A DNA stretch of 20,256 nucleotides from a virus: positions 1 to 20,256 of IMG/VR virus record IMGVR_UViG_3300044940_000108, one strand, 5' to 3'. The notes under the pieces are model-generated. The model ran no database searches. It was not told the DNA's origin and worked only from the letters and a program-made list of their open reading frames with translations. Below, one piece after another: positions 1,812 through 10,199 of the stretch (position 1 is the stretch's first letter; every line of letters starts with the position of its first letter). Both the position numbers and the translations under genes were made by a program.

Positions 1812-2381
1812 ATGAAAACAATCATCGTTAAAACACAAGAGGAGCTGGACGCACTTCCGGCGAGTTTTAAGAAATTTACCACAATTGAGATTCGAGGAGG
1901 CACTTTAGGTGCGCCAATAATTATCAGAATGAAGAGGGAAAACTCCCGCGTCATGCTGCGGGAAAGCTCCCGCGCTGAGCTGTATGGAAGCTCCAGTGTT
2001 GAGCTGTGGGAAAACTCCAGTGTCGTACTGCGGGACAATTCCAGAGCTGAGCTGTATGGAAATTCAAGCGCCGTTCTGTGGGACAGCTCCCGCGCCACGC
2101 TGTATGTAGAATCCAGAGCCATTCTACGAGAAAAATCCAGAGCTGAGCTGAGGGAAAGCTCCAGCGCCTTGCTGCGAGAAAACTCAAACGCCATGCTTTG
2201 GGATAACTCCAGTGCAGTGCTTTATGGAGATTCCTACGCTGAGCTACGTGGAAAATCTAGTGCTGAGATTCTGGAAAACTCCCGAGCCACGCTGTGGGGA
2301 AAATCCAATGCCGTGTTCCGGGACAGCTCCCAGTGCCATGCTGCGGGAAAATTCCCACGCCGAGCTGTATGGAAGCTCTAG
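1812..2381 (+). CDS. Octapeptide-repeat protein A, N-terminal part (frameshifted gene)
   Basis: First of four tandem paralogs. The start is ATG 1812, not the further-upstream in-frame start, because this ATG matches the paralogs' starts and has AGAGGA just before it. Residues 1-42 form the shared N-terminal cap (TQEELDALP, then FTTIEIRGGT, then APIIIRM). Octapeptide repeats of the form x-(N/S)-S-x-A-x-L-x follow, the consensus for a beta-helical or beta-roll solenoid. The frame leaves the repeat register after DSS at about 2330 and ends 17 codons later at TGA 2379-2381. An extra C in the CCC at 2329-2331 explains this: removing it joins the frame to the 2338-2745 segment and gives a 310-residue protein with 27 repeats. 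Function is unknown. Confidence 0.75.
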   Translation: MKTIIVKTQEELDALPASFKKFTTIEIRGGTLGAPIIIRMKRENSRVMLRESSRAELYGSSSVELWENSSVVLRDNSRAELYGNSSAVLWDSSRATLYVESRAILREKSRAELRESSSALLRENSNAMLWDNSSAVLYGDSYAELRGKSSAEILENSRATLWGKSNAVFRDSSQCHAAGKFPRRAVWKL

Positions 2382-2586
2382 CGCCACTCTGTGGGAAAAC
2401 TCCAATGCCGAGCTGCATGGAGAATCCAGCGCCACACTGCGGGACAACTCCCACGCTATACTGCATGGAAACTCCAGCGCCGTGCTGCGTGGAAGATCAA
2501 GCGCCGATCTGCATGAAGGCTCCTACGCTGAGCTATGGGGAGAATCCAGCGCCGATCTATGGGAAAAATCCCCTGTCAGTGCTTAC
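1938..2586 (+). repeat. 24-bp coding repeat array A (27 units)
   Basis: Twenty-seven imperfect 24-bp units encode octapeptides such as ENSSVVLR, DNSRAELY and GNSSAVLW. The register is continuous except for the one-base insertion at 2329-2331. The final unit (EKSPVSAY) changes into the conserved C-terminal cap. Confidence 0.9.
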
Positions 2587-2745
2587 GATTTTTCTGTTGT
2601 GAATGTTTTTTCAGGAGATGCCACCATTGAGCATCTAGCCGATCACTCAACTGCATCACTTTATGGAGTGAAACCAAAGATTAAAAAGAAAGACAAAACT
2701 GCTCGGGTAGTGAAAGTACCAAAACGCGCTGATGGGGATAAATGA
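2338..2745 (+). pseudogene. Octapeptide-repeat protein A, C-terminal part (out of frame with its start)
   Basis: This segment continues the repeat register of gene A in the next frame, from SAMLR at about 2332 to TGA 2743-2745. It holds the last ten or so octapeptides and then the C-terminal cap shared with paralogs B and C (DFSVVNVFSGDATIEHL, then a Lys-rich tail with KTARVV). It has no ribosome binding site of its own that I can see; ATG 2338 is only a convenient boundary. It would be translated only if the upstream frameshift is a sequencing error, is bypassed by ribosomes, or if re-initiation occurs. The stop overlaps ATG 2742, six bases before the likely start of paralog B. Confidence 0.65.
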
Positions 2746-2747
2746 GC

Positions 2748-3227
2748 ATGAAATCAATAATCAAATCAATAATCATTAGAACACAAGAGGAGCTGGATGC
2801 ACTTCCTGCTAAATTCGACGAATTCACCACAATAGAGATTCGCGGAGGAACCGATACTGATCCTATTATCATTCGAATGAATAGGGAAAATTCCAGAGCT
2901 GTATTATATGGAAATTCCCACGCTGAGCTGTGGGGAAGCTCAAGCGCCGTGCTGTGTGAAAACTCCCGCGCCGTGTTGCATGAAAATTCCAGCGCTGAGT
3001 TATGGGAAAACTCCAGCGCTGAGTTATGGGGAAGATCCAGCGCTGAGCTGCGCGGAAATTCACGCGTCAGCGCTTACGATTTTTCTATTGTGAATGTTTT
3101 TTCAGGAGATGCCACCATTGAGCATCTAGCCGATCACTCAACTGTCTTATTTCATAGCGTGAATCCCAAGATTGAAAAGAAAGACGAAACCGCTCGGGTA
3201 GTGAAAGTGAGGACTACGCTGAGGTGA
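2748..3227 (+). CDS. Octapeptide-repeat protein B (8 repeats)
   Basis: This is the shortest paralog, 159 residues from ATG 2748. That start is preferred over ATG 2742 because all paralogs begin at agcATGaa and the GGGG at 2734-2737 is then well spaced. The cap begins with a duplicated KSII, caused by a 12-bp tandem duplication at 2751-2774, and continues as in the paralogs. It is followed by eight octapeptides (for example GNSHAELW, ENSSAELW) and the C-terminal cap (DFSIVNVFSGDATIEHL). The last residues (VRTTLR) are read from what is intergenic spacer downstream of paralog C, so the stop has been lost and replaced relative to C. Function is unknown; a solenoid fold is inferred. Confidence 0.8.
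   Translation: MKSIIKSIIIRTQEELDALPAKFDEFTTIEIRGGTDTDPIIIRMNRENSRAVLYGNSHAELWGSSSAVLCENSRAVLHENSSAELWENSSAELWGRSSAELRGNSRVSAYDFSIVNVFSGDATIEHLADHSTVLFHSVNPKIEKKDETARVVKVRTTLR
2751..2774 (+). repeat. 12-bp perfect tandem duplication at the start of gene B
   Basis: The unit aaatcaataatc occurs twice back to back and adds four residues (KSII) to the N-terminal cap of paralog B compared with A, C and D. Confidence 0.9.
2886..3077 (+). repeat. 24-bp coding repeat array B (8 units)
   Basis: Eight 24-bp units, from ENSRAVLY to GNSRVSAY. Two consecutive units encode the identical octapeptide ENSSAELW apart from the neighbouring GRSS unit. Confidence 0.9.
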
Positions 3228-3237
3228 AGAAACGAGC

Positions 3238-3786
3238 ATGAAAATAATCACAATTAAAACACAAGAACAACTAGATAAACTACCGTTGAAGTTCGACGAA
3301 TTCACCACAATAGAAATCCGCGCAGGAACCGATGGAGCACCTATTATCATCCGAATGAATAGTGAAAATTCAAGAGCTGTATTATATGGAAATTCCCACG
3401 CTGAGCTGTTGGGAAGCTCAAGCGCCGAGTTATGGGAAAACTCCCGTGCGGTACTTTGGGACTGCTCCCGCGCGGCGCTGTGGGACAATTCCCGCGCCGA
3501 GCTGTGGGGTAACTCCAGGGCTGATCTGTGCGACAACTCCAGCGCTGAGTTATGGGGAAACTCCAGCGCTGAGCTGTGCGACAACTCCAGCGCCTTGCTA
3601 CGGGAAAATTCCAGCGCTGAGCTGCACGGAAATTCACGCGTCAGCGCTTACGATTTTTCTATTGTGAATGTTTTTTCAGAAGATGCCACCATTGATTATC
3701 TAGCCGACCACTCAACTGCATCACTTTATGGCGTGAGGCCCAAGATTGAAAAGAAAGACGATACAGCTCGGGTAGTGAGAGCATAA
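3238..3786 (+). CDS. Octapeptide-repeat protein C (12 repeats)
   Basis: A 182-residue paralog with a 42-residue N-terminal cap, twelve octapeptides and a 44-residue C-terminal cap (DFSIVNVFSEDATIDYL, then KIEKKDDTARVV). The start ATG 3238 is preceded by gaggtgaagaaacgagc, a leader nearly repeated in front of paralog D, so the duplicated unit evidently included the ribosome binding site and spacer. Repeats are dominated by N-S-S/R-A-E-L with W, Y, C or R at position 8. It has no signal peptide or membrane segment. As in the paralogs, regular Ala and Leu every eight residues suggests a stacked beta-solenoid. The biological role is not known. Confidence 0.8.
   Translation: MKIITIKTQEQLDKLPLKFDEFTTIEIRAGTDGAPIIIRMNSENSRAVLYGNSHAELLGSSSAELWENSRAVLWDCSRAALWDNSRAELWGNSRADLCDNSSAELWGNSSAELCDNSSALLRENSSAELHGNSRVSAYDFSIVNVFSEDATIDYLADHSTASLYGVRPKIEKKDDTARVVRA
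3364..3651 (+). repeat. 24-bp coding repeat array C (12 units)
   Basis: Twelve 24-bp units from ENSRAVLY to GNSRVSAY. DNSSAELW, GNSSAELC and DNSSALLR are close copies of each other. The last unit matches the last unit of array B. Confidence 0.9.
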
Positions 3787-3812
3787 GACTACGCTGAGAT
3801 GGAGAAACAAGC

Positions 3813-4664
3813 ATGAAAACAATCACAATTAAAACACAAGATGAGCTGGATGCGCTCCCGACGAAGTTCGACGAATTCACCGTTATTGAGATTCGCGGAG
3901 GAACCCATGACGCACCCATTATCATCCGAATGAAGAGGGAAAACTCCCGCGTCGTGTTGCGGGAAAACTCCCGCGCTGAGCTGTATGGAAGCTCCAGTGT
4001 TGAGCTGCGGGACAGCTCCAGTGCCGCTCTGCGTGACAGCTCCCACGCTGAGCTGTGGGAAAGATCCCACGCTGAGCTGTGGGAAAGATCCCACGCTGTG
4101 CTGCGAGAAAAATCCAACGCCATGCTGCGGGAAAACTCCCGAGCCACGCTGTGTGAAGACTCCAGAGCCGAGCTTTATGGAAACTCCCGCGCCGTTCTGT
4201 GGGAAAACTCCCGCGCCGTTCTGTGGGAAAACTCCCGCGCCGTTCTGTGGGGCAGAACCCAGGCTGAGCTACGGGATAATTCCAGAGCTGAGCTGTATGG
4301 AAATTCCCGCGCCGTTCTGTGGGACAGCTCCCGCGCCACACTGTATGTAGAATCCAGAGCCGATCTATGGGGAAACTCCAGAGCCATTCTGCGAGAAAGC
4401 TCCCGCGCCCTGCTGCGAGAAAAATCCAGCGCGGTGCTTCGGAACAACTCTAGCGCCATGCTGTGGGGCAATTCCAGCGCCGTGCTGCGAGAAAACTCCA
4501 ACGCCATGCTTTGGGACAGCTCCCGTGCAGCACTGCGGAACAACTCTAGCGCCACGCTGTATGGAGAATCCAGAGCCGTGCTGCGAGAAAACTCCAGAGC
4601 TGAGCTTCGGGAAAACTCCAGCGCTGTGAAGCGGGACAATGCCATCATTGAGGTTAAGAAATGA
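3813..4664 (+). CDS. Octapeptide-repeat protein D (29 repeats, no C-terminal cap)
   Basis: This is the longest intact paralog, 283 residues. Residues 1-42 are the shared cap (TQDELDALP, FTVIEIRGGT, APIIIRM). Residues 43-274 are 29 octapeptides with no interruption, and the protein then ends after DNAIIEVKK. The DFS...NVF...TARVV cap of A, B and C is missing, so either it was lost or this paralog uses another way to close the solenoid. A block of repeats (DNSRAELY, GNSRAVLW, DSSRATLY, VESRADLW) nearly copies repeats 5-8 of protein A, which suggests recombination between the genes. The start at ATG 3813 is preceded by gatggag. The stop overlaps ATG 4661. Confidence 0.82.
   Translation: MKTITIKTQDELDALPTKFDEFTVIEIRGGTHDAPIIIRMKRENSRVVLRENSRAELYGSSSVELRDSSSAALRDSSHAELWERSHAELWERSHAVLREKSNAMLRENSRATLCEDSRAELYGNSRAVLWENSRAVLWENSRAVLWGRTQAELRDNSRAELYGNSRAVLWDSSRATLYVESRADLWGNSRAILRESSRALLREKSSAVLRNNSSAMLWGNSSAVLRENSNAMLWDSSRAALRNNSSATLYGESRAVLRENSRAELRENSSAVKRDNAIIEVKK
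3939..4634 (+). repeat. 24-bp coding repeat array D (29 units)
   Basis: Twenty-nine units in unbroken register. The variable protein positions are 1, 2, 4, 6 and 8 of each octapeptide; Ser3, Ala5 and Leu7 are nearly fixed. Confidence 0.92.
4181..4252 (+). repeat. Three near-identical consecutive 24-bp units inside array D
   Basis: Units at 4181-4204 and 4205-4228 are identical, and 4229-4252 differs only in the last base. This is what recent unit-by-unit expansion looks like, by slippage or unequal recombination. Confidence 0.9.
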
Positions 4665-4848
4665 GCACAACTAAAATTTGCTGGAAGCTGAGCGAGACGA
4701 GCTTCAGGCGAAGGCGGACGTGTTCAAGGATAGAGAGCTTGCTAGAATAAAGGAATACTGGAGGCTCGAATCCGAGAGAGATGCCCTTCAGGCCCAGGTG
4801 GAGGAGCTGCGAAAGTATTCTGAAACCGATAACAAGGAGAAAGAATGA
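4661..4848 (+). pseudogene. Short coiled-coil protein, apparently frameshifted
   Basis: ATG 4661 overlaps the stop of repeat gene D in the ATGA manner used throughout this region, but its frame closes after 29 codons. The neighbouring frame, from TTG 4678 to TGA 4846-4848, encodes a clean heptad-type coiled coil (LEAERDELQAKAD, then LESERDALQAQVEELRKY). Adding one A to the AAAA run at 4673-4676 would fuse the two into a 62-residue protein beginning MSTTKNLLEAERDEL. Either the gene has a one-base deletion, the sequence has an error, or translation starts at TTG 4678. The role is unknown; short coiled-coil proteins are common phage accessories. Confidence 0.55.
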
Positions 4849-4881: not shown

Positions 4882-5856
4882 GTGACTGATGGCATGGATA
4901 TTCTTAAGCTCTCCGGTATCTCTATCTGCACGGGCGCAGGCGGACTCGACCTTGCGCTTGAAAGATGGGTTAAGCCTGTCGCCTACTGCGAAATCGACCC
5001 TTACGCCCAGGGAGTTATCCTCTCTCGTATCCGAGACGGAAGATTACCCGATGCACCGATATGGGATGACCTCACCACACTCAAGGGAGATATGTTCCCA
5101 AGAGTTGAAATCCTCTACGGAGGACCGCCGTGCCAGGACTTCAGTCTTATTGGAGATGGAGCGGGCCTGGGAGGCGCTAGAGGCCGACTTATGCTTGAAA
5201 CCCTCAGACTCATTGGCGAGTGCCGACCACGCTTCGTCTTGCTGGAGAACGTCCCAGGCATCGTTAGACGAGGACTCGAACAGATTATCCTGGAACTCGA
5301 TGCACTTCGGTATGATGCGCGATGGACTATTGTATCAGCCGAAGAGGTTGGCGCTCCGTTCTTCGGTAAGAGGCTCTTCATCCTGGCCAAGGCCCGTGGC
5401 GAGCGATACGGGAACCCAGGCGAACAAGAGCGTTCATCCTGGAGCGAAGGAAAGACCGACCTTGGGTGCAATTGCAAAAACTTGGGGAATGTGGCCGAGG
5501 CCATTGGCTTCGGACGCGGAGAAAGGTGGTCCGAATCAAACACGGGGCGGGGAGCCAACAATGGCGAGCATAGCTGCCAATTGGAAGCGAGAGCAGAGCT
5601 CACCAGAAAGGCAACGATGGTCTCGTCCGACCGCAACCGACTGGAAAGACGGACACTCACCAAAAAGGCATGGAAGGTTCTTGCCGAGAATCGGTATTCA
5701 GGCCCAGGAGAGTGGCCATCGTGGCTACCTGAGCCCGCTCTTCCACGCGGCGCTGATGGGTTGGGATTCCGATCACACGCAATTAGATGCAGTGGGAATG
5801 GCGTGGTTCCTCTCCAGGCGGAAGAGGCGTTCAAAAGGCTGCTAGGAATTGATTGA
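4882..5856 (+). CDS. DNA (cytosine-5-)-methyltransferase
   Basis: Transfers a methyl group from S-adenosylmethionine to C5 of cytosine in DNA. In a phage this usually protects the genome from host restriction. Motifs appear in order: motif I ICTGAGGLDLALE near residue 15 (SAM binding), motif IV GGPPCQDFS with the catalytic Cys near residue 84, motif VI ENV near 122, a degenerate motif VIII (FFGKRLFIL, without the usual QxRxR) near 163, and motif X GNGVVPLQA near 307. At 324 residues it is of normal length, with a target-recognition region at roughly 175-280. The start is GTG 4882, with AAGGGG at 4866-4871; ATG 4894 is a possible alternative. No restriction endonuclease is next to it. The same DNA carries a second long open frame (4889-5845), discussed as a finding. 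Confidence 0.9.
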   Translation: MTDGMDILKLSGISICTGAGGLDLALERWVKPVAYCEIDPYAQGVILSRIRDGRLPDAPIWDDLTTLKGDMFPRVEILYGGPPCQDFSLIGDGAGLGGARGRLMLETLRLIGECRPRFVLLENVPGIVRRGLEQIILELDALRYDARWTIVSAEEVGAPFFGKRLFILAKARGERYGNPGEQERSSWSEGKTDLGCNCKNLGNVAEAIGFGRGERWSESNTGRGANNGEHSCQLEARAELTRKATMVSSDRNRLERRTLTKKAWKVLAENRYSGPGEWPSWLPEPALPRGADGLGFRSHAIRCSGNGVVPLQAEEAFKRLLGID

Positions 5857-6019: not shown

Positions 6020-6473
6020 TGATTGCATTGATCTGATCGCCCACTTCGAGGGGCTGTACCTGAAAGCGTATTTATGTCCCGCGAAAATATGGACGATCGG
6101 AATTGGAACAATCAGATATCCGAACGGCACTCCAGTGCGCGAGGGAGACATCTGCACGAAGGAAGAGGCTGAAGAGTGGATGCGCCTAGAGCTGGAGCAC
6201 GATGTCGTTCCAGCGATTGAGCGCCTGGTCAAAGTTCCCCTCAATGACGGTCAATTCGGCGCATTATGCTCGCTGATCTACAATATCGGCCAGGGCAATT
6301 TCGCTCAGTCCACACTTCTTAAAAAGCTGAACGCGGGAAACTACGTGGAGGCGGCGGATCAGTTTTTGGCTTGGGTAAAAGGTGGAGGACGGATTCTACC
6401 AGGACTTGAGCGAAGGCGGCGCGCCGAGCGTAATATGTTCGTGGGAAAAGATTGGGCAGAGTTTAAGGCATGA
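6006..6473 (+). CDS. Endolysin, GH24 (T4-type) lysozyme
   Basis: Cleaves the glycan strands of peptidoglycan to lyse the host. From ATG 6006 the protein has 155 residues, typical of the family. The active-site segment reads HFEGLYLKAYLCPAKIWTIGIGT: catalytic Glu, then Cys at the place of the usual Asp nine residues later, then Thr six further on. The E-C-T variant is frequent in phage lysozymes. The later conserved segment is NDGQFGALCSLIYNIGQGNF, and the C-terminus has the usual LPGLERRRRAE. No signal or SAR segment is present at the N-terminus, so export should depend on a holin. An upstream in-frame TTG is rejected because ATG 6006 starts the canonical fold. Confidence 0.92.
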   Translation: MKITDDCIDLIAHFEGLYLKAYLCPAKIWTIGIGTIRYPNGTPVREGDICTKEEAEEWMRLELEHDVVPAIERLVKVPLNDGQFGALCSLIYNIGQGNFAQSTLLKKLNAGNYVEAADQFLAWVKGGGRILPGLERRRRAERNMFVGKDWAEFKA

Positions 6474-8098
6474 TTCATCCTCGCCTCTTGAATCAGATTT
6501 TTGAGAATCCAGAGTTTATCATTATTCAGGGCGATAATATTTCTTATCTGGTCCGAGATATTATCAACATGAACTGGTGGAACACCTCTGGTGTTTTGGT
6601 CGGGTACAAGAATAACAAGCGTATATGTTTTGATTTCACGGAGACGCAGAAGAGAATCGCTGTCCAGTTAAAAGAATTCTATAGGGTAAGTAGAATAAAA
6701 GATAAAAATGAAAGAAAATTCAGGGACGAAATAGTTGCCTATATCAACGGGGCGATAACAAAGCTTGAGCAGCTCAATGCTTACTCGATGCTTTCCCGAG
6801 CGAATCCGTCTCAATATTTTCACAGGAAAGATGGGACAATGACATGGGTGGACTGTACATCGCGCGCCACCTATGCGGCGAAATACGTTTTCCAGAATGG
6901 ATTTGTAGACTTCGACGGAAAATGCAGGGTGCTTGGAGCATACGAAATAATCTCATCGATTGAATCGGGAGAGTGCGAAGATCTTGGGATTAAGGGTTAT
7001 TTCGATGATGGCGAAAATCAAGTGAAAGAGGAGATATTTTCACAAAAGCACGTTCAGCTTACGGTCGAGGAATGGGTAGAAAAACTTGGCGTTAATATCA
7101 TTCCGGAGCGCGAGTGGCTGTTGAGAGATATCAGTAAGATAAAAACCGATCCGTATAAGATTCATGAGGCGGAAATGGTTCGCCGCGGTCTGGCTAGAGG
7201 GGTCAACGAGGCTCTTTACGGGTACAAGACAATGGCAACTTTAGCTACTAGCGAGATAATAATCTCAAGCCATAGCAGTGCAAGCGACGCAAGCAGTGTA
7301 AGTAGCGCAAGCAACGCAAGCCGCGCAAGCAACGCAAGCAGTGCAAGCAATGCAAGCTGCGCAAGCCGCGCAAGCGACGCAAGCTGCGCAAGCCGCGCAA
7401 GCGACGCCGGAGTCACTGGATATAATGGCGAATCGTGGGAGATGTGTAAGCACGCAATTACACGTCCGGATCACCTTTATTATCCGCCAGTCTTCCGAAA
7501 AAACATTTTTGCAATTGCGGGAAACTGGAAAATAGATCATCGAATCACTTCACTCGCTAAGCTTGGTTGGTTTGATCCATTCTCAGGCCACGGGACAAGT
7601 CCTCTTTATGCGAAGCGTTACGGCATTAGATATCTTGGGTTCGACACGAACAAAAAAGCATTTGATGAATATCTGAATATCATCCAGGAGGAGCTTTCGA
7701 ATTCTCCTGGCGCGAATGTCGAGGTTCGCTGCGCCGACTCAACGGTTTTCGATCCCTCACTAGAAGGGAAATTTGATCTCTGCTACACAAGTCCACCGTA
7801 CTTCAACTTCGAGGAGTACGGCGGAAACACGGCGCATTATGAAGGGTGCGAGTCGTATGATGATTTCCACGAGAAGATCACGAAGCCGGTATTCCGTAAT
7901 GTCTGGCGATATTTAGTTCCAGGCTCCACGCTCGCGCTCCAAACGGAAAAAGATAGGAGCGCCAAGAAGAGATGGGTTGAGGTGATTTCTTCCCTTGGAT
8001 ATGAGCTACAGGAAGATGGATTGGCGGGGCGCGAAAAAGTGAAATACTCGACTCAATCAAAGCGCGACCAGACTCTGCTTGTGTTCAGGCGCGGGTGA
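6470..8098 (+). CDS. TSPPY-type DNA amino-methyltransferase with N-terminal domain and x-A-S repeat insert
   Basis: A 542-residue protein with three parts. Residues 1-265 form a domain I do not recognise (contains SQYFHRKDGTMTWVDC and a helical VEEWVEKLGV stretch). Residues about 270-313 are a low-complexity run of x-Ala-Ser triplets. Residues 314-542 are a Rossmann methyltransferase: motif I FDPFSGHGTSP at 368-378, an acidic end of the next strand (YLGFDTN), and motif IV TSPPY at 440-444, which is typical of N4-cytosine and some N6-adenine enzymes. Motif I precedes motif IV. It probably methylates phage DNA; the target base and site cannot be read from sequence. The start overlaps the lysozyme stop by ATGA. 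The unknown N-terminal domain may set specificity. Confidence 0.75.
   Translation: MIHPRLLNQIFENPEFIIIQGDNISYLVRDIINMNWWNTSGVLVGYKNNKRICFDFTETQKRIAVQLKEFYRVSRIKDKNERKFRDEIVAYINGAITKLEQLNAYSMLSRANPSQYFHRKDGTMTWVDCTSRATYAAKYVFQNGFVDFDGKCRVLGAYEIISSIESGECEDLGIKGYFDDGENQVKEEIFSQKHVQLTVEEWVEKLGVNIIPEREWLLRDISKIKTDPYKIHEAEMVRRGLARGVNEALYGYKTMATLATSEIIISSHSSASDASSVSSASNASRASNASSASNASCASRASDASCASRASDAGVTGYNGESWEMCKHAITRPDHLYYPPVFRKNIFAIAGNWKIDHRITSLAKLGWFDPFSGHGTSPLYAKRYGIRYLGFDTNKKAFDEYLNIIQEELSNSPGANVEVRCADSTVFDPSLEGKFDLCYTSPPYFNFEEYGGNTAHYEGCESYDDFHEKITKPVFRNVWRYLVPGSTLALQTEKDRSAKKRWVEVISSLGYELQEDGLAGREKVKYSTQSKRDQTLLVFRRG
7277..7408 (+). repeat. 9-bp coding repeat (gcaagcNNY), x-Ala-Ser triplets
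   Basis: About fourteen 9-bp units encode SAS, DAS, NAS, RAS, CAS and similar triplets. The gca-agc part is almost invariant, while the third codon varies between agt/agc, gac, aac/aat, cgc and tgc. It forms a flexible linker in the middle of the methyltransferase. Confidence 0.9.
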
Positions 8099-8874: not shown

Positions 8875-9120
8875 ATGCGAGATCATGAATTCGATGCACT
8901 AGCAAAACTTCTCCGCATGAAGAGCGGGCCGGCAAGGGAGGCCGCCCGCCTCGTACTCGTGCACAGATTTAAAGTCGGCGAAGCCGCCTGGGCCACAGGG
9001 GTAAGTCAGCCATCGGTTAGCAATGCGGTCGCGAGATGCAGAAAGGGGATCGCTCTAGTCAGGATTGCTGCAGGGAAGTCAATGAGCAGCGCGATGTGCA
9101 ACGGTTTCAGGCGGGAATAA
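8875..9120 (+). CDS. KorA/TrfB-like helix-turn-helix regulator
   Basis: From ATG 8875, with AGGAGG at 8863-8868, this encodes 81 residues. The core matches the TrfB/KorA DNA-binding family: an N-terminal EFDALAKLLR, the signature AREAARLVLVHRF, then a helix-turn-helix at about residues 33-54 (VGEAAWATGVSQPSVSNAV). KorA of IncP plasmids is a dimeric repressor binding palindromic operators; related small proteins occur in phages and prophages. Likely targets here are its own promoter region or the 8240 promoter. The C-terminal dimerisation part of plasmid KorA appears short or different. The last 14 bases overlap the convergent phosphoesterase gene. A longer in-frame extension upstream to 8785 would overlap the previous gene and is rejected. 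Confidence 0.75.
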   Translation: MRDHEFDALAKLLRMKSGPAREAARLVLVHRFKVGEAAWATGVSQPSVSNAVARCRKGIALVRIAAGKSMSSAMCNGFRRE

Positions 9121-10063
9121 AGCGCGGGCCGTACTCGTCGATCCAACCGAATCCCGGCGTCCACGCGACAATCCGCTGCGGCGTGTGAGAAAGCGCTTTC
9201 GACTCCGGATCCCCAGCCAGCCCTGCATTGAGCTCCCATAGTGTCTGCCCGCGCGCTCTTCGAAAGACCACGCCGCCGACGTGAGCGTGACCGCATACGG
9301 CATTCATGAGCGCATAGTCTCGATGCTGGCCAAGGCGAGAGTAGTGCCCGTGAATAAATTCAATGCCTTCCACGATGTACTCCTCGCGCGGATCCGAGAT
9401 GAGCCGGACACCATCGAAGGTCATCAGGCGGTCCAAGTACACCGAGACTACTCGCTCAAGCGAAGGCAGGCTCTCCAGCGTCCGCTTGAGCGGGCGAATG
9501 TCGTGATTCCCCTTGAGCTGCACGCACTCTGCATCTGGGCAGATGGAGCGTAGCGTGAGCCACATCTTTTCAGCGCCGCTTCGCGCCATTTCTTCCTCTT
9601 GAGCGGGCGTGTAGATATTGTGTGAGCGAGGAAATTTCGCGTGGCAGTACATGTCATAAAGATCGCCGATCTGAATGATACGCTTTGGCTTATGCTTCTC
9701 CGCGAATTTGTATGCCGCCTCGAGAACATACTGATTCACGAATGGGAAGTGCGTGTCCGGGATGATGAGCGTCGGTGTGTATGATATCTTCTCCGCCGGC
9801 TCTCTCGGGGCGTACTCGTCGAGAACTTCTGACAGATCGCGTCGAAATATTTCATTAGTGAGCCCAGACTTATTCCGCTTGGTCCTTCTTTCGTCGTAGG
9901 TTTCGAGTCCAGCGGCCTTGAGAAGCTTCGTGTATGAGCCGAATAGAATGGTGATCTGATAGAAGCTCCCTTTCATGTTCGATATGAATTCCGTTTTGGT
10001 CGGCACGCGCCCAAGCTCTGATGCAAGCTGTCTCACTTGGGCGACCAGGTCATGCTCATTCAT
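9107..10063 (-). CDS. Metallophosphoesterase with N-terminal helical (homing-endonuclease-associated-type) domain
   Basis: A calcineurin-like phosphoesterase of 318 residues, one of the only two genes on the - strand. All metal-binding motifs are present and ordered: DTH (103-105), GDLYD (133-137), GNHD (185-188), HGH (238-240) and GHAH (258-261), so it should be an active two-metal enzyme. Its substrate (nucleic acid, nucleotide or protein phosphate) is not predictable. Residues 1-60 (LVAQVRQLASELGRVPTKTEF, then SYTKLLKAAGL) match the short helical module associated with HNH homing endonucleases, probably a DNA-binding element. The start is ATG at 10063-10061, with AAGGAG properly spaced; an upstream TTG is too close to it. 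It is convergent with the KorA-like gene. Confidence 0.85.
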   Translation of the reverse strand: MNEHDLVAQVRQLASELGRVPTKTEFISNMKGSFYQITILFGSYTKLLKAAGLETYDERRTKRNKSGLTNEIFRRDLSEVLDEYAPREPAEKISYTPTLIIPDTHFPFVNQYVLEAAYKFAEKHKPKRIIQIGDLYDMYCHAKFPRSHNIYTPAQEEEMARSGAEKMWLTLRSICPDAECVQLKGNHDIRPLKRTLESLPSLERVVSVYLDRLMTFDGVRLISDPREEYIVEGIEFIHGHYSRLGQHRDYALMNAVCGHAHVGGVVFRRARGQTLWELNAGLAGDPESKALSHTPQRIVAWTPGFGWIDEYGPRFIPA

Positions 10064-10199
10064 CGTCAAACTCCTTTTTGTTTTTCTTATTTTCTTGCCA
10101 AGTGAGCGTGAAAGGCATTGAGGGTGGGACAGATTTCTCTACTCGCTCGAAGCAAAGGCAGGCGTCGCCGTCATCTGAAGGCTGGCCACCAATGTACAT
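10056..10199 (-). CDS. Small protein upstream of the phosphoesterase
   Basis: A 47-residue ORF whose stop overlaps the phosphoesterase start (ATGAATGA), as expected for translational coupling. It starts at the complement of 10197-10199, with GAGG shortly upstream. An earlier in-frame ATG at 10265 would give 69 residues but has no ribosome binding site. The N-terminus has GGQPSDDGDACLCF, the middle PPSMPFTLTW, and the C-terminus is Lys-rich. I do not recognise it. It is supported by arrangement rather than by similarity. Confidence 0.45.
   Translation of the reverse strand: MYIGGQPSDDGDACLCFERVEKSVPPSMPFTLTWQENKKNKKEFDDE

Follow-up and report, generated by a model that had tools for sequence, protein, structure and literature searches.

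Four tandem genes of capped octapeptide repeats in a virus genome fragment, predicted to encode beta-solenoids and related to a variable phage family

The closest described counterparts of the locus analyzed here are repeat genes of Bordetella phages and mycobacteriophages. In the Bordetella phages BPP-1, BMP-1 and BIP-1, bbp36 (phrog_18079; variable region 2, VR2) is made of 24-bp coding units for octapeptides (octads), as in our genes, but it carries DUF7666 at its N-terminus, has no N-terminal cap (N-cap) of the kind found in our genes, and repeats the octad GTATAGxx. We counted 14 units in BPP-1, 21 in BMP-1, 20 in BIP-1 and 7 in vB_BbrP_003, with two alternating residues per unit. BPP-1 and BIP-1 show 0 mismatches in 529 + 397 flanking bases, yet differ by these unit numbers; for BPP-1 and BMP-1, an ungapped comparison gave 0/529 mismatches in the 5' flank and 250/378 in the 3' flank, which was read as an indel offset, and this pair was not used. 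According to the passages of PMC2884959 that deal with VR2 (reporting Liu 2004), its variation apparently does not reflect host tropism and bbp36 is not essential; nothing further on bbp36 or VR2 of Bordetella phage was found among the literature matches listed. The same passages describe Tweety gp54 and Che8 gp57 of mycobacteriophages, likewise variable-length repeat genes with nonsynonymous variation between units, but built of a tetrapeptide unit; they are other genes, with Che8 gp57 lying two genes before gp59. Mycobacteriophage Che8 gp59 (phrog_15773) is a member of an already known but uncharacterised family, and it shares with ThetaBob gp59 (also phrog_15773) and Gordonia phage Spooky gp76 an N-cap, an octad array (e.g., GSAHVEAW) and trailing degenerate octads. 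Our literature search found no account of a phage octapeptide-repeat beta-solenoid, of DUF7666 or of the unit motif.

The window is the whole stretch of 20,256 nucleotides of the IMG/VR virus record IMGVR_UViG_3300044940_000108. On its plus strand, positions 1812-4664 hold four consecutive genes, each starting with a similar N-cap and continuing in octads x-(N/S)-S-x-A-x-L-x, in agreement with an earlier sequence-only reading of this DNA, which had proposed four tandem genes of capped octads. Genes B (2742..3227, 161 aa; cap, 8-9 octads and tail), C (3238..3786, 182 aa; cap, 12-13 octads and tail) and D (3813..4664, 283 aa; cap and 29 octads of 24 bp at 3939..4634, without a tail) are open frames. 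Gene A, which had been taken for a single uninterrupted gene, is split instead: its first part (1812..2381) encodes a 40-residue N-cap and 16 octads, a one-base frame change near 2330 (2325..2335) leads to a stop at 2381, and the other frame (2335..2745) continues with some 10-11 octads followed by the C-terminal tail. This one-base shift may be genuine or may be a sequencing or assembly error. The cap measures 40 residues (46 in B) rather than the 42 claimed before. The leader, said to be conserved before each start, is near-identical only between C (3213..3237) and D (3788..3812); it is partially conserved in B and absent in A. The C-terminal tails of A (2575..2742), B (3066..3224) and C (3640..3783), which the earlier reading did not mention, are 89% identical in nucleotides over 44 codons and have no counterpart in D.

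Paralogy inside the window is far above chance (D vs B, E=1.4e-36; D vs A, E=1.5e-33 and 1.7e-31). We counted 78 units in total (16 upstream and 11 downstream of the break in A, 9 in B, 13 in C and 29 in D), which agrees with the 27, 8, 12 and 29 units given previously once B and C are each counted without their final degenerate unit. Ser3, Ala5 and Leu7, described as near-fixed, occur in 77/78, 67/78 and 69/78 of these units, respectively, with Val in the other 11/78 at position 5. Across the window arrays, pN at the core is 0.04-0.13 as compared to 0.41-0.51 at positions 1, 4, 6 and 8. Between units, pS amounts to 0.40-0.65 and exceeds pN across the whole unit in 5/5 window arrays, so that fast diversification is not seen in these arrays themselves; such large synonymous differences also mean that most of the unit diversity is old. 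On the other hand, repeat blocks were exchanged between the window genes after the caps had diverged. Genes A and D are 72.8% identical in nucleotides in their caps and 94.4% in the adjoining units 1-3, the three-unit blocks set against caps being the most similar ones picked after a scan, with counts from rounded identities, so that p-values for this contrast err on the optimistic side, and the tails are 89.4% identical as compared to 67-76% for the caps. The idea of a diversifying surface thus holds for the more recent exchange of blocks between genes but not for the bulk of the unit diversity. The window copies are solenoid-only genes that arose by tandem duplication.

An AlphaFold2 model of D (mean pLDDT 77.3) predicts a right-handed beta-helix with one strand per octad and parallel strands stacked in coils; the model of a relative, L041, has a pLDDT of 90.0. 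The nearest solved folds among the matches listed are right-handed beta-helices, and D aligns to TibA (4q1q) with Z 19.8 and rmsd 2.8 over 236 residues. The window proteins are accordingly predicted to be rod-like right-handed beta-solenoids built of octads, and this model, together with the low pN of the core, supports a solenoid whose core is constant and whose surface varies, as had been expected from the repeat pattern. The predicted fold is like that of the beta-helix passenger domains of TibA, antigen 43 and pertactin, although the identity in structural alignments is about 7-12%; the titles of these entries name adhesins or virulence factors. A search of PDB sequences with D gave no credible match (best E 0.63). 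Since the lag analysis showed no clear two- or three-unit period, the number of units per coil is not fixed by the sequence. The residue ratio in the alignment of TibA with D is 244 vs 274. Given the coil length we assume for TibA, each coil would then hold two octads, or about 16 residues.

All window genes except for the second part of A, which gave no match, hit the phrog_15773 profile weakly but consistently (A first part, 1.2e-5; B, 4e-4; C, 8e-6; D, 1.2e-7), and the label of this PHROG, 'unknown function', fits the earlier remark that such proteins are uncharacterised. Using gene C, tblastn finds Che8 gp59, ThetaBob gp59 and Spooky gp76 at 22-28% identity. These three differ from the window genes by a C-terminal DUF7666, by units that are much more alike, and by the presence of one gene only in the stretch seen. 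Pfam detects DUF7666 in five of the eight relatives tested (L010, L012, L013, L014 and L016, but not L008, L009 and L011). At E<=10 it is absent from both parts of A and from B, C and D, and the window genes are therefore filed as a solenoid-only variant rather than as full phrog_15773 members. Because octads and this domain occur in one protein in Che8, ThetaBob, Spooky, bbp36 and L010, the solenoid could serve to bring an enzyme, perhaps ADP-ribosyltransferase-like, to a target, with the window copies acting as decoys or regulators. The top Foldseek match of the L041 model, the Arr ADP-ribosyltransferase 2hw2 (E 0.16, probability 0.72), points the same way, but its TM-score by query length is a weak 0.20, the VIA rows of the structure comparison cover the solenoid part only, and a search of PDB sequences with the DUF7666 profile brought up no ADP-ribosyltransferase. 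Together with the lack of DUF7666 in the window genes, this makes such a targeting role improbable in our assessment.

The four-gene, solenoid-only arrangement is a form absent from all 10 relatives' records searched whole with gene C, each of which has one array; in the other relatives, the search for a second array covered the flanks. What looked like a second array in L050 proved to be its one array read on the reverse strand. Six of 31 relatives' loci (L036, L037, L038, L040, L046 and L047) have no clear octad array. Neither the upstream gene nor the terminase led to a phage closely related to that of the window, with terminases of named relatives about 28% identical at best, and the window DNA had no match in named phages. 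No credible family emerged for the window proteins from Pfam or NCBIfam. Matches to Ion_trans_N (E 2e-4), LLB_putidacin (0.0057) and VLPT (0.014) fell under the curated cut-offs and look like low complexity, and a PADLOC match to HsdS (E 0.0087 for C, 0.0011 for L041) was set aside as probably of the same nature. A plasmid match (H6) was spurious, as it lies on the strand opposite to the annotated gene and reflects a helical EEAKRQAEAL repeat.

The relatives' arrays vary in another manner. In a set of 25, some of them close kin (L024 and L027; Che8 and ThetaBob) and with L033, L034, L036-L040, L046, L047, L050, L052 and L053 omitted, pN exceeded pS between units in 22 arrays, and the second position of codon 1, the second of codon 6 and the first of codon 8 were among the three most variable nucleotides in 18/25, 19/25 and 19/25 arrays, respectively. 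The residues that alternate in many phages are E/G at 1, V/E at 6 and W/R at 8; in 17 arrays hand-picked for this alphabet the figure of 219/236 is a description and no test. When eight mycobacteriophage isolates were aligned over a 3,627-base stretch, counting from base 55 onward, three of four substituted sites fell inside the 96-nt array, where they affect residues 6 and 8 of a single octad. This alignment replaced an ungapped comparison distorted by the Hanako indel, which had shown no octad enrichment (p 0.08) and, once Rebel was removed, a p of 0.03 for the reverse trend. L024 and L027, with flanks 94-97% identical, share five units and then diverge, and the longest run in the Squirty array is 10 units by regex and more by eye. 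Variation in repeat number, as proposed earlier, is thus borne out among related phages (e.g., BPP-1 vs BIP-1). As regards a diversity-generating retroelement, no reverse transcriptase was detected in the nine window proteins scanned of this 20-kb fragment, and in the relatives variation is confined to a few fixed sites rather than falling on adenines generally.

Selfish or neutral slippage, in which arrays grow and shrink without function and are tolerated by the phage, would account for the wide range of unit numbers, the frameshift in gene A and the copies that look broken in the mycobacteriophages EleanorGeorge, Nitzel and Soul22. But the cap is constrained between the window paralogues (dN/dS 0.14-0.33 in the five of six pairs with estimable dS), as are the core positions, and variation in the relatives is focused on few nonsynonymous sites; we therefore consider such slippage unlikely. 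Our preferred reading sees the window genes as kin of a widespread group of capped octapeptide solenoids in phages, several of them with DUF7666. Each octad would contribute a turn and a short strand spanning positions 4-7; Ser3, Ala5 and Leu7 would presumably face the core, and residues 1, 4, 6 and 8 would lie on the exterior or within the turn. Exposed residues would take few alternative states per unit across the family, and arrays would be rearranged by unequal recombination, probably also by short gene conversion between units, so that surface and length could shift quickly while the core stays fixed. The fast change of exposed residues and repeat number in the relatives is probably due to binding of a changing host target. 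Most likely the product binds a variable host factor inside the cell and serves as inhibitor, decoy or adaptor in host-phage conflict; it would be expressed together with early or accessory genes and be absent from the virion. We give an even chance to this reading of an intracellular, recombination-varied binding scaffold, its fold being predicted and its binding and conflict roles inferred. The frameshifted A and the three seemingly broken mycobacteriophage copies are as expected of a dispensable gene and count against it.

More tentatively, the arrays may act as a diversity generator free of reverse transcriptase, in which three exposed choices per octad, reshuffled by recombination between units and between the four tandem genes, give a code-like surface that tracks the host target. 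If true, rod length and residue choices would provide a modular surface able to follow a changing target. Independently of this scheme, the analysis brings scattered orphan observations (BPP-1 VR2, Che8 gp59-type genes, DUF7666 proteins and metagenomic phage arrays) into one picture, with a fixed core, near-fixed synonymous sites and few alternating exposed residues as their common pattern. This pattern predicts a conflict between the apparently dispensable octad genes and some variable factor of the host.

The genomic context bears on where these proteins act. Among the relatives' neighbours (87 of 138 ORFs scanned; best 25 of 229 PHROG and best 25 of 64 Pfam families), exonuclease, SSB, RusA, Sak4, NinB and DnaD-like families were each matched by 2/87, perhaps overlapping, proteins; terminase (2), amidase (2), portal (1) and lysozyme (1) were matched as well, which leaves the context a thin line of evidence. 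The net charge (K+R-D-E) of the window proteins is near zero: +2 and -3 for the first and second parts of A, -4 for B, -9 for C and +5 for D. Both observations argue against a virion or DNA-mimic role. The predicted resemblance to beta-helix adhesins and tailspikes would suit a virion surface or receptor-binding protein, one of the functions suggested earlier, but this fold is common to many unrelated functions, and the DNA-metabolism neighbours, each family at 2/87, and the passages on VR2 in PMC2884959 speak against it; we find a virion role quite unlikely. DNA mimicry that blocks restriction, also suggested from the letters alone, draws on the two DNA methyltransferase genes downstream of the octad genes, which make anti-restriction plausible for the region. 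DNA mimics are strongly acidic proteins, though, and with charges of only +5 to -9 per protein and a pI of 9.46 for D, such a role is very improbable here.

Four consecutive genes, A to D, occupy positions 1812-4664 of the + strand, each with a similar N-terminal region (the cap) followed by an array of octads, i.e., eight-residue units x-(N/S)-S-x-A-x-L-x of 24 bp. The near-fixed core noted in the sequence-only reading holds across the 78 units of A-D (Ser3 in 77, Ala5 in 67 and Leu7 in 69). Its claim of uninterrupted octapeptides fails for gene A, which is broken by a one-base frameshift near 2330, with 16 units before and 11 after it; B, C and D, likewise on the + strand, carry 9, 13 and 29 units. 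A leader had also been described as conserved before every gene, and it is indeed common to C and D, but B has only part of it and A lacks it. Genes A, B and C share a C-terminal tail resembling degenerate octads; D has no tail. Other reading frames are open across the arrays as well, as a by-product of the 24-bp period, and relatives conserve the frame taken here as coding.

The caps are, judged by their divergence, old duplicates: pairs share 67-81% nucleotide identity, and dS is 0.49-1.32 in the five estimable pairs, A-C being saturated. For these five pairs dN/dS is 0.14-0.33, so the caps have been maintained by purifying selection. Blocks have been exchanged among the four genes. Units 1-3 of A and D are 94.4% identical, compared to 72.8% for their caps (Fisher p=2e-4). 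Between B and C, these units reach 91.7% compared to 76.3% for the caps (p=0.01), and the tails reach 89.4% compared to 67-76% for caps (p 3e-5 to 0.0095), although these p-values are optimistic because the blocks were picked after a similarity scan. Another pair of blocks, units 5-7 of A and 15-17 of D, is also 94.4% identical. Recombination or gene conversion between paralogues best explains this likeness. The diversity of units in the window is nonetheless mostly old, since units within a gene share a mean nucleotide identity of only 0.46-0.69 at lags 1 to 6 and whole-unit pS (synonymous differences between units) exceeds pN (nonsynonymous) in all five window arrays; at positions 1, 4, 6 and 8, pN and pS are about equal.

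PHROG 15773, whose function is listed as unknown in PHROG, gives weak matches to B, C, D and the portion of A before the frameshift, and strong ones to gp59 of mycobacteriophages Che8 (1.2e-169) and ThetaBob (4.4e-175). Profile-based scans gave 24 viral and 7 bacterial/archaeal genome loci, 25 of the 31 with a clear octad array, and a later scan added three contigs. Some relatives join cap, octads and a C-terminal domain (e.g., L025, L028, L029, L030, L032, L041, L043 and L045), whereas others have another N-terminus with octads and a C-terminal domain (L019, L020), another N-terminus with octads only (L021, L034, L042) or cap and octads only (L024). The C-terminal domains align mutually, as well as to the equivalent domains in Che8, ThetaBob, Spooky and bbp36, the octad gene of Bordetella phages BPP-1 and BIP-1. 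Pfam matches DUF7666 in L010, L012, L013 and L014 (the Che8 locus) and in BPP-1 bbp36, there N-terminally, but not in L008, L009 or L011. When gene C was used to search 10 viral records over their full length, the matches in each fell in one place, with no second array elsewhere; thus, among these, four tandem genes were seen only in the window. Contig ends fall inside the array in L023, L026, L027, L039 and L044, as though assemblies break there. In L008, the same phage contig as L017, three unlike repeat genes adjoin (GxFIKA type, 2-403; octads, 536-1555; VNGSxG type, 1559-2182). In L014, Che8 gp57 (2776-3639), a Tweety gp54 homologue of SAAW tetrapeptide repeats, lies two genes upstream of octad gene gp59 (3995-4801). 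L036 and L038, from the same profile search, have ORFs with a 9-residue period, L036 also a 5-residue one.

In the relatives, units are more alike (nucleotide identity 0.77-0.94 at lags 1 to 6 in 24 of 25 arrays; L031, 0.51-0.62), and their variation is site-specific. Unit pN exceeds pS in 22 of 25 arrays, the exceptions being L022, L031 and L044 (sign test p=1.6e-4, with arrays partly non-independent). The three most variable nucleotide positions include codon 1 position 2 in 18, codon 6 position 2 in 19 and codon 8 position 1 in 19 of the 25. Among 17 arrays hand-picked for the E/G, V/E, W/R alphabet, all eight combinations occur and together make up 219 of the 236 units. The residues at positions 1 and 8 (p=1) and at 1 and 6 (p=0.21) vary independently, whereas those at 6 and 8 show an association (p=0.003).

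Array length has also changed recently in relatives, so that the repeat counts which the sequence-only reading proposed to compare do vary among them. The flanks of BPP-1 and BIP-1 (529+397 bases) are identical, yet their arrays have 14 and 20 units and differ in residue pairs. In L024 and L027, whose flanks are 94-97% identical, the first five units are common to both and the later ones differ, the L027 array being cut by the contig end. Related mycobacteriophages have from 3 (Raymond7) to 15 (ThetaBob) units, Squirty having more by eye, and the copies of EleanorGeorge, Nitzel and Soul22 have frame changes and appear broken. Eight mycobacteriophage isolates (10 records, H26-H35, two being second accessions) aligned over 3.6 kb have four substituted sites, three in the 96-nt array and one elsewhere, once an indel in Hanako and a diverged block in Rebel (bases 2-54) are set aside. 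All three array substitutions affect octad 2, at its residues 6 and 8; six isolates have the same array sequence. Octad 2 of Rebel equals octad 3, and that of BabeRuth has the ending of octad 1, a pattern that short gene conversion might leave. Pham et al. (2007, PMC2884959), in a passage citing Liu 2004, give 9-20 repeats between isolates for VR2, the variable repeat region of bbp36, with no apparent link of this variation to tropism and bbp36 dispensable; the same paper describes the pattern of a tetrapeptide array as consistent with selection for variation.

The beta-solenoid suggested for the octad proteins is borne out in the predicted models of D (mean pLDDT 77.3; residues 82-94 below 50) and L041 (90.0), in which each octad forms one four-residue strand, although these were built on alignments of 21 and 14 sequences and the repeats may be out of register. 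The closest solved structures to both models are right-handed beta-helices: TibA 4q1q (Z 19.8, rmsd 2.8, 236 aligned) and antigen 43 4kh3 (Z 17.9, rmsd 2.4, 208 aligned) for D, and 4kh3 (Z 14.1, rmsd 3.0, 174 aligned) for L041. With Foldseek alone, neither model had a PDB match at E<=0.001. A BFVD structure search returned a DUF7666 protein (probability 1.00, E 0.0088). The DUF7666-like part of L041 spans 2331-2714, and an alignment of 16 domains of this kind has invariant C, G, H and K residues. The first Foldseek match of the L041 model was a rifampin ADP-ribosyltransferase (E 0.16, probability 0.72), and the DUF7666 profile found no ADP-ribosyltransferase among PDB sequences; a tie to these enzymes is only a lead.

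Among the matches listed for 87 neighbouring proteins from 22 loci, the PHROG families hit by two of these proteins include exonucleases, SSB, RusA and further Holliday junction resolvases, Sak4, NinB, DnaD-like helicase loaders, terminase and DNA methyltransferase, counts being small and families overlapping. Together with bbp36 lying near an exonuclease and an SSB in BPP-1, this weakly suggests an early or accessory gene block. This context speaks against a role of the octad proteins in the virion, which is disfavoured, though less firmly than the DNA mimicry proposed earlier, against which the protein charge argues. We infer that the exposed solenoid face may bind a changing intracellular host factor, and that the solenoid-only forms of the window may be binders or decoys.

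In the 20,256-base window, the octad genes adjoin DNA methyltransferase and lysozyme genes. Among 9 window proteins, Pfam matches exceeded curated cut-offs for C5 methyltransferase, N6/N4 methyltransferase, lysozyme and terminase, and fell below them for portal and capsid (SU10-like). The C5 methyltransferase ORF (4882-5856, 324 aa) overlaps a same-strand 318-aa open frame (4889-5845). A minus-strand gene (9107-10069) combines a homing-endonuclease-associated HNH repeat with a metallophosphoesterase-like part, the latter below the Pfam cut-off. Besides octads, the phage carries a second kind of repeat, a three-residue one (SASDASSVSSASNASRASNAS...) inserted at 7274-7402 in the methyltransferase ORF 6470-8098 (N6_N4_Mtase match).
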